This document shows positions 3,001 through 19,174 of a DNA stretch of 22,358 nt, piece after piece. Location: positions 1 to 22,358 of IMG/VR virus record IMGVR_UViG_3300027170_000004; one strand, 5' to 3'. The stretch comes from a virus. Each line of letters starts with the position of its first letter. The stretch's first letter is position 1. The position numbers and the translations under genes were made by a program. The notes beneath the pieces were generated by a model, which ran no database searches, was not told the DNA's origin, and saw only the letters and a list, made by a program, of their open reading frames with translations.

Positions 3001-3537
3001 GTTGCAATGCCTAATTTCCATAAACAACTGGTAAGACAATACATGGAAATAATGAGTGATCCAATTAAGGCAAGAAGAACAGGTACATTATCTGGTGCAA
3101 TAGATCAACTGTATAGAGACATACCTATTGCAAACTCTGGACTATATGATATGGTAGATAATTTTGGTGATCCAGTTATTCCTAACCAGGGAGAAAAATT
3201 TGTTCCTTTAAGTTTAGACTTCGGAGAAAGAGGAGATCCATTAGTAAAACATCTTGTTGAAGAAGGAGTATTTGTAGGCTCTGCAAGAAACAGAAAAATT
3301 GAGGACTTTGAAACAGGCGAATCTAGATACCTAGATGGCGATGAGTATCAGGTTTATAAAATGGAATCTGCAAAAGCAGTAGGTAAACTACTTAGAGAAA
3401 ATTATTCCTACTTAAAAACATTAAAAGGAGAAGAGTTAGGAGAAACTGTAAAAATGTATAAGCAACAAGCGAGAGAGGAAACACTATATGAGTTATTCTA
3501 TTATGATAAATACAAAGAATTAACCAAGAAAAAATGA
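1..3537 (+). CDS. Large polyvalent / internal virion-type protein (5' end uncertain)
   Basis: The open frame covers 1178 residues and starts with ATG at the first base of the window, so this may be only the C-terminal part of a larger protein. It is rich in K, E, S and T. Recognisable features are a hydrophobic segment near residues 860-876 followed by an acidic run (ADDDD), the stretch SGMTTQLRNIMANV near 558-571, and a region PFTITVGDVSVSYQDHPLYF near 909-928. These resemble the large polyvalent or internal virion proteins of podovirus-like phages, which are carried in the capsid and ejected with the DNA. Its stop overlaps the amidase start (ATGA), so virion and lysis genes form one rightward operon. 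No catalytic motif is visible to me. The virion role is inference; the family resemblance is from memory. Confidence 0.6.
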   Translation: MGLVTATPSKLLSSTTAANGVVDVFMSPTFLKGLGMTESQVTRSLVNAANFSTTKNVKDNKGNIKQVTTGLRAGVSAKANIEDTLKLIRTKLASDKSSFEDRKVFVESFLGRVAKRINPKSLDPKTGKMKFVNSKKSIATNKKIVKFFKESIGFTQMKATGGRVSPANLKAAVSYMLGEPLLRSESQTNKIYAVLEIDGKVKPVKSDAHESYPKAIASEGDARTKLHILKDRMDWRDNVADPDTDTNIEVGRPRNKDGKPRSHIQILPTTVGLSYAPVRVLNQSENPGMSFQLNTDTNKKQISESITRLKEQGKFTEQQLVDYYHRRFPDVSKKELGEMYNGKVPEDSPRSEKRKYTNRLEEVLSEQTFEELSEEAKTYIPKRNNITEAEADAMFEGLGLEDAIVVVKSNPEYLLPEVRIALTNKVVMELEKKAQQLRAEGKDSEANLISASINSIVEVIAAEGTKAGRFIQAFKLLKALSADRTVSLVNKKLKEAGKQPLTKEQEAELKRLKQESDNAAEGLPKSEAMAKQFKYIQKLLGSSFKGVFEAYFYASILSGMTTQLRNIMANVMSIGNELIVTSIREAILGNPKAIFQAPMGMIKGLSKGWLNAKNILQTGIKSDKSNKFDNPALLEWWRFNTNETVIGKLLPKKVTDSADWLLNSKFLPWSPNFLKYVQRAMVAGDQMFFHSAKEMQARALANRIKRGKDVTPEDVKRAESILEPSQELKDQAKAQAIKEGFKEGTTRYKIRVHELIEAQRDMTIQGQSEDFAAKTTFNYEPEGALSYLYNFIVQSRQMPGIGPIMTTFIPFARVLTNVFNRFLHYTPVGAVTAYRGKVRIASGKIRTLSTEEKADLYIKSSIGLSTMAGLVAYLMSQADDDDAVLKISAAGPSDFNKKYELQKAGWKPFTITVGDVSVSYQDHPLYFILAGAGTLYESDKYGNSIDGEGNADLFSYVALTTAMSMLQQSWLQGLSDLGRILNSNDPAKAIANKTFGVLGSVAMPNFHKQLVRQYMEIMSDPIKARRTGTLSGAIDQLYRDIPIANSGLYDMVDNFGDPVIPNQGEKFVPLSLDFGERGDPLVKHLVEEGVFVGSARNRKIEDFETGESRYLDGDEYQVYKMESAKAVGKLLRENYSYLKTLKGEELGETVKMYKQQAREETLYELFYYDKYKELTKKK

Positions 3538-6530: not shown

Positions 6531-8235
6531 TAAACTTTGCATACTGCCCGCCATGAGTTGTGTTGCTATACTCATTATAACAAGTTGTTTCTAAATTATA
6601 CTTGAATTCCTGCATACCAGTCTTTCCAGTAAACCTCCATCGTACCTTCCAAACGTGCACTTCGACTAGTTCATTCTCAAAATCTCGGTACACAGTAATT
6701 CCATTATCTACTTTATTAAAGAAATGGGAAGACCCACTTACACTATACCCACTTGCAACCTCTACCTTACCATTCTCTTTCTTTAATTTTTGTGGGTGAG
6801 CAACTAATATCACTCCACAATCATAAGCCTCTTTAAATATTTTTATCTTAGATAATTGTAATCCAGTATACTGATGCTCATTCATCCCTCTCTCAATCTT
6901 ATGCTCAACAAATGCCCAGTTATCTATAATCAAGCAATTGATACCCATCTTTTTGACCAACTCTTTTCCTTTGTTTAATATCCCCTCTACTGTAAGGTCA
7001 TTGTCTTTTAAATTTATAAAGTAGAAATGCTTATTAATAAAATCAATTGCAGGATCTAATTCTTCTGGCTGTAAATTTGTAGCAGAGCCTTTACCAAACT
7101 TTTTACCGCTATACTTTTCAATTAATTCAGCAACATGAACTTTAATTGGCTGTTTCTCAGCAGAAAATATTCCAAACTTCCATCCTTGTCTTGCCAACTC
7201 TACAATAACTTGATCTACAAAAGAAGATTTACCATGCCCTGGAACTCCAGTAACTAAAGTAAATTCACTTGGTCTCCATGACATCAATTTGTCAAACTCT
7301 TTATAACCTATCTCATCACCTTTTGGCATTCCATGGTTATACAGGTTGTGTATTTCTTTACGAGAATCTGATGCCTTACTTACGCCTTCTAGTGGAAAAG
7401 GCTTTGCATTATCTAAACATTTAACTAATTCAACACTTCCATGTTTAAGTAAGACATCGTTGGCATCCTTACATCCTTCTGGAAAGTTTACTAACCAGAT
7501 CCTGTCTTTGCCAATTCTTCTCGATAATTCGTCTCTTAATTTAATTCCAGGGGCATCATTGTCTAATGCCAAGTATATTTTTTCTTTGTTTTCAAACTCC
7601 TCTATGCTGTTGTCTAGATATGTAAGGTTTTGATTACCAGTAGATGCTCCATTAGGTACAGAGCAAGCAAACATTAATTTACCTTGCTGTAATCCTGCCT
7701 CATAAAAAGCCATAGCATCAAACTCCCCTTCTGTTATTATACACCAAGATGCAGGTTTAATTAAATCTAAACCATACATTATCATTTCAGAACCTTTATT
7801 AAGTTTAAAGTTTTTCTGTGAATCTCTAAACTTGATATTTATTCTTCTACCTTTTCTAATATAATTAAATTGGATAACTGGTTTTTCCATCTGTACTTGT
7901 GGCATATACTCTACGCCTTCAGTCACTCCGAAATACTCAATTGTGCTATCACTTATCCCTCTGTCTTTGAAGAATTTTAGAACCTTATCAGATAGTGGGG
8001 ATGCTCTTTGAACAGGCATCTCATATTCAGTTTTATATTCTGCTACGGATCCATTATCTCCACAGTGGTGGCAATAATAAGTACCAGTTTCAACCCAAAC
8101 TCTTAGGCATTTTTCATTCCTATTCTTCTTCCTAGTATGAGAACACTTAGGACATTTGGTTTTTTGGGGGTCGTTCCCTCCATTAGACTTGACTTCAATG
8201 CCAAGTGCTTGCAGTTTTGATAAGTTATCTGTCAT
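6517..8235 (-). CDS. T7 gp4-type bifunctional primase-helicase
   Basis: The 572-aa protein has all the parts of a T7 gp4/Twinkle-like enzyme. An N-terminal zinc ribbon has C28, C31, C55 and C58. A TOPRIM primase fold has E169-G170 (IITEGEFDA) and D225-x-D227 (LALDNDAPG). The RecA-like helicase has Walker A at 330-338 (GVPGHGKSS), Walker B at 434-439 (CLIIDN) and a VAHPQKL motif near 478-484. It should unwind DNA 5'-3' as a ring and prime the lagging strand. With the winged-helix protein upstream (stop and start overlap) and the SSB-like protein downstream it forms the replisome core. No phage DNA polymerase is visible in the window, so one lies outside or the host enzyme is used. Confidence 0.93.
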   Translation of the reverse strand: MTDNLSKLQALGIEVKSNGGNDPQKTKCPKCSHTRKKNRNEKCLRVWVETGTYYCHHCGDNGSVAEYKTEYEMPVQRASPLSDKVLKFFKDRGISDSTIEYFGVTEGVEYMPQVQMEKPVIQFNYIRKGRRINIKFRDSQKNFKLNKGSEMIMYGLDLIKPASWCIITEGEFDAMAFYEAGLQQGKLMFACSVPNGASTGNQNLTYLDNSIEEFENKEKIYLALDNDAPGIKLRDELSRRIGKDRIWLVNFPEGCKDANDVLLKHGSVELVKCLDNAKPFPLEGVSKASDSRKEIHNLYNHGMPKGDEIGYKEFDKLMSWRPSEFTLVTGVPGHGKSSFVDQVIVELARQGWKFGIFSAEKQPIKVHVAELIEKYSGKKFGKGSATNLQPEELDPAIDFINKHFYFINLKDNDLTVEGILNKGKELVKKMGINCLIIDNWAFVEHKIERGMNEHQYTGLQLSKIKIFKEAYDCGVILVAHPQKLKKENGKVEVASGYSVSGSSHFFNKVDNGITVYRDFENELVEVHVWKVRWRFTGKTGMQEFKYNLETTCYNEYSNTTHGGQYAKFNGQE

Positions 8236-15627: not shown

Positions 15628-15882
15628 GTTTTTAATAAATTCTACTACTGCTTGGTATCTTGTGTCTAAATCGTTACTGCTTAGACATTCATCAAAGTAC
15701 CCTACTTTACCTACATTATCACTTAAATAATCTTCAATCTTCTTTACTACTGGCATAAGCCAATCCCAAGATTTGTGAAATTGCATTGGTGCAATCGTAC
15801 CATCATTGTATTTAGGTGAGTAGCATTTGTTATGATTTACCTCGTACCCCATAAATTCTGCTATAAGTTTATTGTCATTCAT
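15613..15882 (-). CDS. Conserved hypothetical phage protein, IAEFMG family
   Basis: The 89-aa product has NKLIAEFMG near the start, WDWLMPVVKKIEDYL in the middle and YQAVVEFIKNL near the end. This combination recurs in small proteins of Bacteroidota phages as I remember them, without known function. The gene is tightly packed: its stop lies within the leader of the next gene, and its own ATG follows a leader copy at 15883-15898. Confidence 0.65.
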   Translation of the reverse strand: MNDNKLIAEFMGYEVNHNKCYSPKYNDGTIAPMQFHKSWDWLMPVVKKIEDYLSDNVGKVGYFDECLSSNDLDTRYQAVVEFIKNLKTI

Positions 15883-15898
15883 ATTATATAGTTTTAAT
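15883..15898 (-). promoter_or_regulatory. Start-codon leader element, copy 2
   Basis: Exact ATTAAAACTATATAAT directly before an ATG; it contains the last codons and stop of the upstream gene. Confidence 0.6.
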
Positions 15899-16153
15899 TA
15901 ATGATTGCTCTATCTCATCATATCCGTAAACATCAGTATAGACAAGTCCTGCGTTCTCTTCGTTGTAGTCGGTATACTGAACGCAGAATATTTCATCATC
16001 AACACTTTCATCGGTGTCTCTGATTACAAAATAATCCTCATCAAAATATGAGTATAACTCATACCTTTCATTCAGTACAATGGTTTGACCTTGTTCCATT
16101 TGGTCAAGAGTTTCTCTGCTGACCTTGTTAAGTGCTTCTTCTAATATGTTCAT
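15884..16153 (-). CDS. Acidic hypothetical protein (89 aa)
   Basis: The 89-aa product is very acidic, with DTDESVDDEIFC and YTDYNEENAGLVYTDVYGYD, and starts with a helical NILEEALNKVSRETLDQMEQ. Acidic small phage proteins sometimes mimic DNA or inhibit host enzymes, but nothing specific is visible. Its ATG follows leader copy 3. Its end encodes IKTI-stop, which is itself the next leader copy. Confidence 0.55.
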   Translation of the reverse strand: MNILEEALNKVSRETLDQMEQGQTIVLNERYELYSYFDEDYFVIRDTDESVDDEIFCVQYTDYNEENAGLVYTDVYGYDEIEQSLIKTI

Positions 16154-16169
16154 ATTATATAGTTTTATT
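16154..16169 (-). promoter_or_regulatory. Start-codon leader element, copy 3
   Basis: AATAAAACTATATAAT directly before the ATG of the acidic protein; one base differs from the main form. Confidence 0.6.
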
Positions 16170-17042: not shown

Positions 17043-17321
17043 TTACCAGTTTAAAATGTTTTGAGGATCAGAATAAAATTCTACGGAATTTAGAAATGAT
17101 CCTGTTGTACCTCTTTGTACCTCATACCTTGATGGTATTTTGTTTCCGTAATAATCTAACTTGCTTGTTTTTGGTAGCATACAAGCACCAGAGTTTAGCA
17201 ATTCCATTGCTTGTCTTCCGATTGTACCTTCCATTTGCCATACAATTCCAGTATTAATCATGGATTGCATTCTTGAGTAGCCCAATTCTAATTGGAGTTT
17301 CTCGACTTTTTTATAATTCAT
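17043..17321 (-). CDS. Hypothetical protein, paralogue of the product of 13426-13737
   Basis: The 92-aa product shares KLQ-x(3)-G near the start, a central SGACML block and PSRYEVQRGTTGS with the protein of 13426-13737. The cysteine in SGAC and the RG-x(2)-GS loop are conserved between the two, suggesting a functional site. It is the first gene after the tRNA-Arg, with an exact leader element before its ATG. No named family was recognised. Confidence 0.65.
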   Translation of the reverse strand: MNYKKVEKLQLELGYSRMQSMINTGIVWQMEGTIGRQAMELLNSGACMLPKTSKLDYYGNKIPSRYEVQRGTTGSFLNSVEFYSDPQNILNW

Positions 17322-17337
17322 ATTATATAGTTTTAAT
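17322..17337 (-). promoter_or_regulatory. Start-codon leader element, copy 4
   Basis: Exact ATTAAAACTATATAAT directly before the ATG of the gene that follows tRNA-Arg. Confidence 0.65.
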
Positions 17338-17372
17338 GTTGCCTACTATTAAGGAGTTCGGCTGTTCCTTTG

Positions 17373-17446
17373 TGACTCAGATAGGATTCGAACCTATAAC
17401 CGATACCTTAGAAGGGTATTGCACTATCCAGTTGTGCTACTGAGCC
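17373..17446 (-). tRNA. tRNA-Arg (anticodon UCU)
   Basis: A full cloverleaf can be drawn on the minus strand: acceptor GGCTCAG/CTGAGTC with one G-T pair, D-arm GCAC/GTGC, anticodon stem ATACC/GGTAT around the loop CTTCTAA (anticodon TCT), and T-arm ATAGG/CCTAT around TTCGAAT. The discriminator is A and no CCA is encoded. It would read AGA, the main arginine codon in this A/T-rich genome. It sits in a gap between two protein genes of the leftward operon and is followed by a hairpin and a leader element. Confidence 0.93.
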
Positions 17447-17455
17447 TCCCTTGAC

Positions 17456-18031
17456 TTACGCCAAGTGCGTTCTTTGAATATGCTGTATCATGGTAGTAAC
17501 ATTTGTACCAGTACAAGCCATTGTTGGATTATCACATTCATCCCTCTTCACACCATCATGAACATCCTCCAAAACAACACATTCATGAGTGCATTCCAAA
17601 TCATCCCTCCAGAGGGTTGTTGTGTTCTCATTCATGTACTTGATTAATCTCTGGACATCTGCTTTCAAAGATTCATAGTCTGATTCTGGGGTGACCTTAT
17701 CCTTATTCCATGAGGGGGTAAAGTGCTTATCAAATTCATCTGTACCTTCTTCGTACATTACACCATCTACCTCAACAAATTGGATATCATCTGGACATTC
17801 CCAATCTGTATAGTAGTAGTAGTCATGATTATAATAATCCTCTAATAACCATTCATCAGTTATTTCGCCTTCTTTGTATTCTGGGTTTCCTTCCTCTTCG
17901 ACTAATCTAAGGTGGTTTATCATATCAGATTCGTACTTAATGTACATTAGACCTTCTCCGATGCAGTAGCCAGATGCCATACCTTCTCCTGTGACATCGC
18001 ATTTTCTTGGGTGTAGTTTTACGCTTTTCAT
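17456..18031 (-). CDS. Hypothetical acidic, cysteine-containing protein (191 aa)
   Basis: The 191-aa product has an N-terminal KCDVTGEGMASGYCIGEGLM, an acidic and tyrosine-rich centre (LLEDYYNHDYYYYTDWECPD) and a C-terminal region with several cysteines (LECTHECVVLED, later DECDNPTMACTG). The CDVTG-x-GM-x-x-G start recurs in Bacteroidota phage proteins that I know only as hypothetical. The cysteines could bind metal. It ends ten bases before the tRNA-Arg and overlaps the upstream small membrane gene by four bases. Confidence 0.6.
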   Translation of the reverse strand: MKSVKLHPRKCDVTGEGMASGYCIGEGLMYIKYESDMINHLRLVEEEGNPEYKEGEITDEWLLEDYYNHDYYYYTDWECPDDIQFVEVDGVMYEEGTDEFDKHFTPSWNKDKVTPESDYESLKADVQRLIKYMNENTTTLWRDDLECTHECVVLEDVHDGVKRDECDNPTMACTGTNVTTMIQHIQRTHLA

Positions 18032-18150
18032 ATTCCATGTGTTAAGAGGTGAGCGAATAGCATCCCAAATGAAAAGAGTGCTGTAAGACCTAATGCGACA
18101 ACGAAGATGTGCATAATGATTGTTGTTGATTTTTGAATAATTAATTTCAT
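18028..18150 (-). CDS. Very small membrane protein (40 aa)
   Basis: The ATG at 18150 is chosen because an exact leader element ends just before it; a longer open frame to 18249 would translate the tRNA-like hairpin. The 40-aa product begins MKLIIQKSTTIIMHIFVVAL and continues hydrophobic (GLTALFSFGMLFAHLL), giving one or two membrane passes. The function is unknown. The stop overlaps the next gene by four bases. Confidence 0.55.
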   Translation of the reverse strand: MKLIIQKSTTIIMHIFVVALGLTALFSFGMLFAHLLTHGI

Positions 18151-18166
18151 ATTATATAGTTTTAAT
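18151..18166 (-). promoter_or_regulatory. Start-codon leader element, copy 5
   Basis: Exact ATTAAAACTATATAAT directly before the ATG at 18150, 22 bases after the tRNA-like hairpin. Confidence 0.65.
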
Positions 18167-18187
18167 GTAAGGGCATTATTGCCTTTG

Positions 18188-18230
18188 ATACTGGAGGAGG
18201 AATCGAACCTCCTTGCATCCAATCCAGTAT
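18188..18230 (-). ncRNA. tRNA-like acceptor/T-arm hairpin without D and anticodon arms
   Basis: On the minus strand TACTGGA pairs with TCCAGTA (8 bp with the outer A-T), and GGAGG pairs with CCTCC around the canonical T-loop TTCGATT. Only ten bases (TTGGATGCAA) separate the 5' acceptor strand from the T-stem. It is therefore an acceptor/T-arm mimic, either a decayed tRNA or a functional minimal RNase P/Z substrate. A 5-bp hairpin (18233-18247) precedes it. Confidence 0.6.
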
Positions 18231-18238
18231 AGGTTGCT

Positions 18239-19174
18239 TTACGCAACAAGAGTGCTTAAAGAGTTAAACACCTTTTGGTCTAAGCGTTGAAGACCTCCGA
18301 CATATTTTGACTCTTGTCTGGTTCTGTCTGAACCTCCTTTGTGAGTTGTGTAATGAGTTACACCAGAAAATAATCCCCAAAGCGTTTGACCTTTGTAAGA
18401 CATTTCATTTACTACAGACTGGACTAAATCTTGAGTCTGGTTCAATTTACGAGTTGAGTAATTTTCTTTGGCTCTGGATTCTCCCATAGTTACATCCACA
18501 CCAGTAACAAGATTAATAGTCTTATTCACTTGATTTTGGGTGACCTTCTCATTAGCCATTTTACTGAATATCTCAAATAAAGATTTATCAGCCTGTTCCA
18601 TATTCTCTATAATGCGTAGAGACCTTTGAACAGCATCTCTCATATTAGCAGTATGTCTAACTGAGTTCTGTAATTCTTTACTAAGTGCAGAGAATTGATT
18701 AGCACACGAGATTGTTGTTCCAGTTGTTCCCCATCTTAATGAGCATGAACCATCATGTGAATTGATTGCTGTTGCTTTTCTTGTGATTATATCATCTCCT
18801 ACTTTCTTGTCTTGGAGATTTACCTGTAACATAACTTTACGACCTCCTTTGAATTCTTGACCATTTGAAATTGGCTGTCCGATTACATCAGCAATCTCCA
18901 GTACAAGTTCTGCAAGTTCTGAATTCTGAAAAGTTTCGTACTGGTTAGTGAATGCACCGAAGCAATCGTTGTTGTCTGTTCTAACTACGCCGAAGAAATC
19001 TGTTGCAGTTGTGATTGTTCTGTTAGGGTCAACATTTGAGGGAGACTCAAAGTTTAAAGGATACTTCTTAACATCCCAGTTAAGATTAAATTTGTGTAGC
19101 AGTTGCTCTGCTTTTGATAGGTTTACACTTTCTAAGTTTGTGTCGATTAATCGACCTTTTGAATCTAAATACAT
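18239..19174 (-). CDS. DUF932 phage/plasmid-like protein (TIGR03299-type)
   Basis: The 311-aa product matches the DUF932 family found on phages and plasmids: an N-terminal VNLSKAEQLLHKFNLNWDV, then FGVVRTDNNDCFGAFTNQYE, a GGRKVMLQVNL strand, the block SHDGSCSLRWGTTGTTISCA and a later WGLFSGVTHYTTH. Length is typical. The biochemical function of the family is not established; recombination-like roles have been suggested. The gene is first in the accessory block, behind a variant leader element and a 300-base control region. A small hairpin overlaps its stop codon. Confidence 0.85.
   Translation of the reverse strand: MYLDSKGRLIDTNLESVNLSKAEQLLHKFNLNWDVKKYPLNFESPSNVDPNRTITTATDFFGVVRTDNNDCFGAFTNQYETFQNSELAELVLEIADVIGQPISNGQEFKGGRKVMLQVNLQDKKVGDDIITRKATAINSHDGSCSLRWGTTGTTISCANQFSALSKELQNSVRHTANMRDAVQRSLRIIENMEQADKSLFEIFSKMANEKVTQNQVNKTINLVTGVDVTMGESRAKENYSTRKLNQTQDLVQSVVNEMSYKGQTLWGLFSGVTHYTTHKGGSDRTRQESKYVGGLQRLDQKVFNSLSTLVA

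Follow-up and report, generated by a model that had tools for sequence, protein, structure and literature searches.

A stretch of viral DNA of 22,358 nucleotides (IMG/VR record IMGVR_UViG_3300027170_000004, positions 1 to 22,358; hereafter the window) carries on its minus strand, between two protein genes, an element of about 42 nt that resembles a tRNA reduced to its acceptor and T-arm. The locus raises the question of whether this is the remnant of a tRNA or an RNA with a function of its own and, in the latter case, what that function may be. The original prediction suggested a processing mark or tRNA mimic, with decay of a tRNA as the simpler alternative; at the level of sequence, the former reading was supported over decay by compensatory changes, intergenic arrays and the retention of positions involved in end processing. 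Comparison indicates that the element is one copy of a widespread family of about 40-nt tRNA-like RNAs, real and not decayed tRNA, although the window phage itself has a single copy.

The minus-strand acceptor/T-arm fold with the loop TTCGATT, described in the original prediction, was confirmed by the sequence, by folding and by the covariance-model search proposed with it: model R1, built from relatives, matched the window site with 71 bits (E 8e-19) over 18184-18230, flanks included. The fold energy was -15.8 to -18.1 kcal/mol (z about -2 to -2.5), and 5-9 of 200 shuffled controls folded as well. Taken alone, the energy is only suggestive of a real structure and, as it is just moderately unusual for a single sequence, the case for the element rests on comparison, which settles it. 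The features of the locus are listed in Table 1; if the acceptor is taken as 6 bp, T18188 is the equivalent of N73. Within the window, ARAGORN and Rfam 15 did not call the element, tRNA-Arg being the only call.

Table 1. Features at and around the element, with positions in the window; sequences are read 5' to 3' on the strand given.
Feature	Position	Strand	Basis
Mini-tRNA element (acceptor, mini D-arm, T-arm): ATACTGG ATTGGATGCA AGGAGG TTCGATT CCTCCT CCAGTAT	18188..18230	-	Sequence and model R1 match
Acceptor stem, 5' strand ATACTGG	18224..18230	-	Pairs with 18188-18194; six of six core pairs covary in relatives
Linker ATTGGATGCA: miniature D-arm with UGG loop, then GCA	18214..18223	-	Both pairs covary
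T-stem, 5' strand AGGAGG (6 bp)	18208..18213	-	Pairs with 18195-18200; five of six pairs covary
T-loop TTCGATT	18201..18207	-	Sequence; nearly constant in family
T-stem, 3' strand CCTCCT	18195..18200	-	Covariation in relatives
Acceptor stem, 3' strand CCAGTAT	18188..18194	-	Covariation in relatives
tRNA-like 3' signature C74-A75-A76 (CAA, not CCA)	18185..18187	-	C74-equivalent in 74% of family copies
Weak second hairpin GGC-AATAAT-GCC with bulged continuation, directly 3' of the element	18169..18185	-	Sequence
Upstream gene, DUF932 protein, 311 aa	18239..19174	-	Pfam PF06067, E 5.5e-21
Downstream small gene, about 40 aa, ATG at 18150	18028..18150	-	ORF list and gene-start motif AAACTATATAATATG
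Full tRNA-Arg(UCU)	17372..17446	-	9 nt past a stop codon, same kind of site as the mini-tRNA

Two details of the predicted fold required revision. The acceptor had been given 8 bp; the stem stood, but its eighth pair (A18223-T18195) is better replaced by A18213-T18195 as the sixth pair of the T-stem, because this R-Y position covaries within the T-stem and A18223 covaries with T18217. The linker had been described as ten bases in place of the D and anticodon arms. Its length and the missing anticodon arm held, but it is not empty of a D-arm: AT-TGG-AT forms a 2-bp miniature D-stem around a UGG loop (G18G19-like), and both of its pairs covary, A18223-T18217 as A-U/G-C/C-G and T18222-A18218 as A-U/U-A. 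In the window, the mini D-arm is not formed in the minimum-free-energy structure from ViennaRNA, so that support for this arm comes from covariation.

The element begins 8-9 nt past the stop codon of the DUF932 gene (TAA, 18241-18239) and ends 37 nt ahead of the next ATG, that of a small gene whose start motif AAACTATATAATATG is common to neighbouring genes and to the relative L001. A coding role was rejected: the sole long ORF across the element (18028-18249) starts with TTG and is probably not the gene, the gene-start motif lying at 18150. A gene-start motif, TAAAACTATATAATATG, precedes several small genes on the minus strand of the window (18146-18168, 17317-17339, 16149-16167 and 15878-15898), recurs in the relatives L001-L003, and forms a conserved leader of this phage group.

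Relatives identified through the DUF932 gene carried the element at the same place in two cases, L001 (91% identity) and L002 (80% identity). The acceptor reads TACTAG/CTAGTA in L002 vs. TACTGG/CCAGTA in the window, a compensatory change on both strands of the kind for which an alignment of related phages had been suggested. In the third relative, L003, the element was absent after the DUF932 gene and present at another site; stem loss in close relatives, named beforehand as a point against a functional element, was thus seen at this site in L003 and not in L001 or L002. A GAAA-loop hairpin stands after the DUF932 gene of L003 (L003:1037-1130), where the relatives carry the mini-tRNA. At a neighbouring site, the window and L001 have the full tRNA-Arg, and the homologous upstream gene of L002 is followed by another mini element, which shows exchange between sites and not decay of the window copy. 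A DNA similarity search with the flanks of the element returned just chance matches to an AT-rich gene-start motif, and a Vibrio phage matched in that search had no element.

The wider family was searched with a pattern of linker and T-arm that left the acceptor unspecified. It matched 19 viral contigs, and in nearly all of these the flanking bases formed an acceptor stem. A looser pattern matched 108 viral contigs and 12 bacterial or archaeal genomes; among 101 newly inspected loci, roughly 88 (manual count) combined a full T-stem and a paired mini D-stem with an acceptor in which five or more of the six pairs formed. Model R1 found 136 copies in 97 loci. A stems-only descriptor gave 39 matches in the first loci vs. 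0.6 per shuffled set, many of these loci having been selected by means of an element-specific pattern. Members share an acceptor stem of 5-7 bp and a T-arm of 6 bp with the loop TTCGAYT; the D-arm is tiny, usually 2 bp around an NGG loop, and the anticodon arm is missing. Named carriers included the Mycobacterium phages Fowlmouth, Indlulamithi and Papyrus and the Gordonia phage Cafasso (together the four actinophages counted below, with genes annotated by others), as well as the crAss-like phage cr131_1.

The bacterial and archaeal genomes tested had single or few copies each, and those in Lactobacillus, Carnobacterium, Carboxylicivirga, Lachnospiraceae and Bathyarchaeota lay near phage-type or replication genes, including terminase, HNH, integrase, SSB, exonuclease and Sak4. 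When the phage collection was queried with the Streptomyces and L094 copies, no record matched. Unannotated tRNA-like sequences also occur between genes of Arthrobacter phage Kalizoi (L161:2440-2580) and Halorubrum virus Serpecor1 (L165:2450-2580), one of the pair lacking an anticodon and having a D-stem of 3 bp and a bulge in the T-stem, the other being longer and uncalled by ARAGORN; as longer or bulged forms outside the descriptor, both were left out of the family.

Across 133 distinct copies, 99.0% of cells were paired and 13 of 14 pairs showed double (compensatory) changes, with a covariation score of 1.01 compared to 0.18 in shuffles and 0.12-0.14 when the partner was slid by 1-3 columns. 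The 133-row alignment was itself fitted to model R1, so that a set whose selection ignored the acceptor is the cleaner test; there, the acceptor was 95% paired, with double changes at 6 of 6 pairs. The 19 actinophage copies were 100% paired and 9 of 11 pairs covaried. Linker positions 1-2 and 6-7 paired as AA/UU, AU/AU, GA/UC, GU/AC, CA/UG, UA/UA or UU/AA around the NGG loop, and one copy had a longer linker pairing (CCGA/UCGG). With a descriptor of stems and T-loop that did not require it, GG was present in the linker of 142 of 146 matches, many from loci for which the selecting pattern itself contained GG; of the 57 copies not covered by that pattern, 40 kept the 2-bp D-stem. A few copies had a longer D-stem or an extra hairpin at the place of the anticodon arm (L028:6693-6747, L159:4298-4361 and L159:6870-6916).

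These changes bear directly on the idea that the element decayed from a full tRNA or is a tRNA fragment left at an integration (att) site. The window phage does encode an integrase and has a full tRNA-Arg nearby, and integration of phages and other elements leaves tRNA fragments in prokaryotic genomes (PMC9897764). Such fragments, however, are without the 5' acceptor strand, whereas here both strands are present and covary. Compensatory changes on both acceptor strands across unrelated phages, the occurrence of many copies in arrays, the constancy of the linker and the preservation of the element in L001 and L002 make either origin extremely improbable, and both were rejected on covariation.

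The conserved positions indicated which tRNA properties are kept. As in canonical tRNAs (RF00005), a 7-nt T-loop (TTCRANN) sits on a T-stem of at least 5 bp, and acceptor and T-stem total 11-13 bp (mode 12), giving the 12-bp stack followed by N73 and C74; a cloverleaf with an anticodon is not formed, the linker in the window being 10 nt. The C74-equivalent base was C in 74% of family copies, while acceptor sequence and position 73 were freely variable family-wide. The four actinophages had G1 in 36/37, A73 in 35/37 and C74 in 37/37 copies; copies outside the actinophages showed no G1/A73 preference, position +1 being U, G, A or C. Full tRNAs in the same viral contigs had C74 in 96% of 164 cases, a frequency perhaps partly favoured by ARAGORN's own scoring, and mostly ended in N-C-A/T-A (CAA/CTA-type) without CCA. 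Since C74 and the 12-bp stack are kept while acceptor and N73 are free, marks for end processing are conserved and marks of amino-acid identity are not. The free acceptor and N73 argue against a specific synthetase, and specific aminoacylation of a released mini-tRNA is unlikely on these grounds.

An acceptor stacked on a T-stem-loop and followed by C74 is the make-up of the AT1-type minimal substrate of RNase P. That acceptor/T-arm hairpins are such substrates, as the original prediction held, agrees with the published work: they are cleaved efficiently, replacement of the T-loop reduces and shifts cleavage, and C+74 has a counterpart in minimal substrates (PMC11143913).

The position of the copies relative to genes was far from random. 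A stop codon lay 5-11 nt upstream of 37% of copies, compared to 2.2% at random positions (17-fold), with a peak at 7-9 nt. In the four actinophages, 29 of 35 annotated same-strand gaps of 55-130 nt contained the element, always in sense orientation with the neighbouring genes, at median distances of 9 nt from the stop codon and 43.5 nt to the next start; shuffled controls of these genomes gave no elements. Acceptors and T-stems differed from gap to gap within one phage and covaried, which shows that the copies are not recent duplicates. A second hairpin often began 2-5 nt past the acceptor: hairpins of at least 6 bp within 10 nt after the element numbered 53 vs. 10.8 expected (about 5-fold), and those of at least 7 bp 31 vs. 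4.4. The tRNA-like structure thus stands at gene-gene boundaries, co-transcription itself being suggested by gene order.

In most of the named phage records examined, the element was unannotated; in a few it lay under an annotated hypothetical gene, which probably has a misplaced start. In Fowlmouth, genes 43, 47 and 56 have been annotated with starts inside or ahead of mini-tRNAs (L159:2412-2451, 3276-3317 and 6870-6916), and these calls are probably wrong.

The GC-rich hairpin would suit a transcription terminator or a DNA-level repeat, and L028 has a T-run a few nt after it. Most copies, however, are without a U-run, no terminator was predicted at the window element, and conservation that tolerates GU pairs and is tRNA-specific points to RNA; the terminator was rejected, and we consider this class of explanation very improbable. 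It is somewhat less remote, yet still unlikely, that the element acts in cis without being cut, by abutting the terminating ribosome, by insulating or coupling the genes, or by blocking 3' exonucleases. The tight 7-9 nt spacing to the stop codon and the hairpin ahead of the following start would suit such a translation or mRNA-stability element, but any hairpin would then serve, and conservation of the T-loop, the D-loop GG and C74 would go unexplained.

Taken together, we consider it rather probable that the anticodon-less mini-tRNA is an intercistronic processing punctuation cut by host tRNA-processing enzymes. Docking of the mini D-loop GG into the T-loop would restore the tRNA elbow in the absence of the anticodon half. 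Because RNase P cleaves hairpins of acceptor, T-stem and T-loop, a cut by the host RNase P at the 5' end of the acceptor may be expected, with the 3' end produced by RNase Z, or by 3' exonucleases plus RNase P. The upstream message would then end a few nt past its stop codon and the downstream message would start with a near-terminal hairpin; near-terminal 5' hairpins slow 5'-dependent decay (ompA-type stabilisers), and here they could do likewise. Long phage messages would be chopped into one-gene pieces, releasing an RNA of about 42 nt that, having no anticodon, could not decode. Against punctuation stand the confinement of the G1/A73 preference to actinophages and the absence of the element from 6/35 gaps and from the L003 site, and the tight stop-codon spacing could alternatively come from a function in terminating translation or simply from compaction of the genome.

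Alternatively, the released and perhaps CCA-tailed mini-tRNA could itself be the product, acting in trans by occupying or decoying tRNA-handling proteins such as the CCA enzyme, EF-Tu, tRNA-modifying enzymes or tRNA-sensing defence, while offering no anticodon to nucleases. Retention of the whole top half of a tRNA (D-loop GG and T-loop) with free acceptor identity is what recognition by shape would lead one to expect, and in Corynebacterium phage PSonyx the copy, with an encoded ACCA (L166:2496-2541), is immediately followed by the gene for an RtcB-like RNA ligase. For a single product, however, there should be no need of as many as about ten different copies, distributed gene by gene, all in the sense direction and at a fixed distance; the lone copy of the window phage also counts against this explanation, which we judge improbable. 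A combination of both roles is doubtful as well: tailed viruses of many bacteria, and possibly archaea, might share an unrecognised class of anticodon-less tRNAs that makes monocistronic mRNAs with protected 5' hairpins and, at the same time, stable 42-nt mimics acting in trans on host tRNA-handling or tRNA-sensing proteins.

Intercistronic punctuation of this type has relatives among known systems. In plant mitochondria, mRNAs carry t-elements at their ends, tRNA-like structures through which tRNA-processing enzymes are directed to cleave (Forner 2007; Hanic-Joyce 1990; as summarised in PMC8003010). Both are tRNA-like and lie at message ends or boundaries, cleavage by tRNA-processing enzymes being presumed for the phage; t-elements are organellar as described, whereas the phage family covaries, has a mini D-arm and no anticodon arm, and forms arrays between genes. 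In metazoan mitochondria, genes are bounded by tRNAs that are excised by RNase P and RNase Z (Ojala 1981; as summarised in PMC4394434), but these are full, functional and decoding tRNAs, which mini-tRNAs cannot be. The AT1 and pMini substrates share with the phage RNAs an acceptor stem, a T-stem-loop and the C+74 equivalent; they are synthetic, whereas the phage RNAs are natural and have an added 2-bp D-arm with GG. The phage-derived M3 RNA and the C4 antisense RNA of P1/P7 are also RNase P substrates (PMC11143913); they are not described there as a repeated intergenic family.

The tRNA-like domain of tmRNA (RF00023) likewise combines acceptor and T-arm without an anticodon arm, and L181:5283-5322 matched it weakly (25.6 bits; gathering score 47). 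However, tmRNA has an mRNA-like domain and a tag reading frame, and mini-tRNAs, about 42 nt in total, have neither; ARAGORN and Rfam called no tmRNA in the window. Armless mitochondrial tRNAs of Enoplea and mites are also tiny (under 50 nt), tRNA-derived and processed, but in them the anticodon arm is retained and the D/T arms are gone, opposite to the situation in mini-tRNAs. SAS/ESAS repeats are conserved upstream of many genes of cluster K mycobacteriophages (PMC3203893); they are sequence repeats of 13 bp and 17 bp, unlike the structured mini-tRNAs, and were rejected as a prior description of the family, no mini-tRNA being found in the examined stretch of the cluster K phage TM4. Rfam 15 gave no family match at gathering score for the elements in the window and 12 further loci. 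In a search of open-access journal papers, natural mini-tRNAs without an anticodon were not found described for phages. The RNA itself thus appears to be new, while its manner of working resembles known punctuation.

To our knowledge, the minimal RNase P substrate has so far been known only as a laboratory construct. If the proposed punctuation is correct, phage transcripts are processed by a system like the mitochondrial one, through a natural minimal substrate. The family is common, is missed by ARAGORN and Rfam, and has gone without annotation in phages cultured on M. smegmatis mc2 155, which makes it directly testable. It would provide many natural covarying minimal substrates for studies of RNase P, RNase Z and the tRNA elbow, help to mend start-codon and gene calls in phages, and offer compact self-excising spacers for synthetic operons.

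Further RNA features were observed in the loci that were inspected. CCCCCG stands directly 5' of many acceptors (CCCCCGAACTGC...) in L015, L016, L054, L060 and L089, a conserved 5' leader of one group. On the plus strand of L029 (5580-5780), a tRNA-Leu-like sequence with an apparent insertion in the D-loop region follows a second odd tRNA-like stretch, and ARAGORN called neither. Papyrus, which carries a mini-tRNA array, also encodes a GOLLD RNA (RF02032, 190 bits; L176:16282-16741), and a Type III hammerhead-like match (L051:720-777, plus strand; 42 bits, gathering score 48.5) lies about 1.2 kb from a mini-tRNA.
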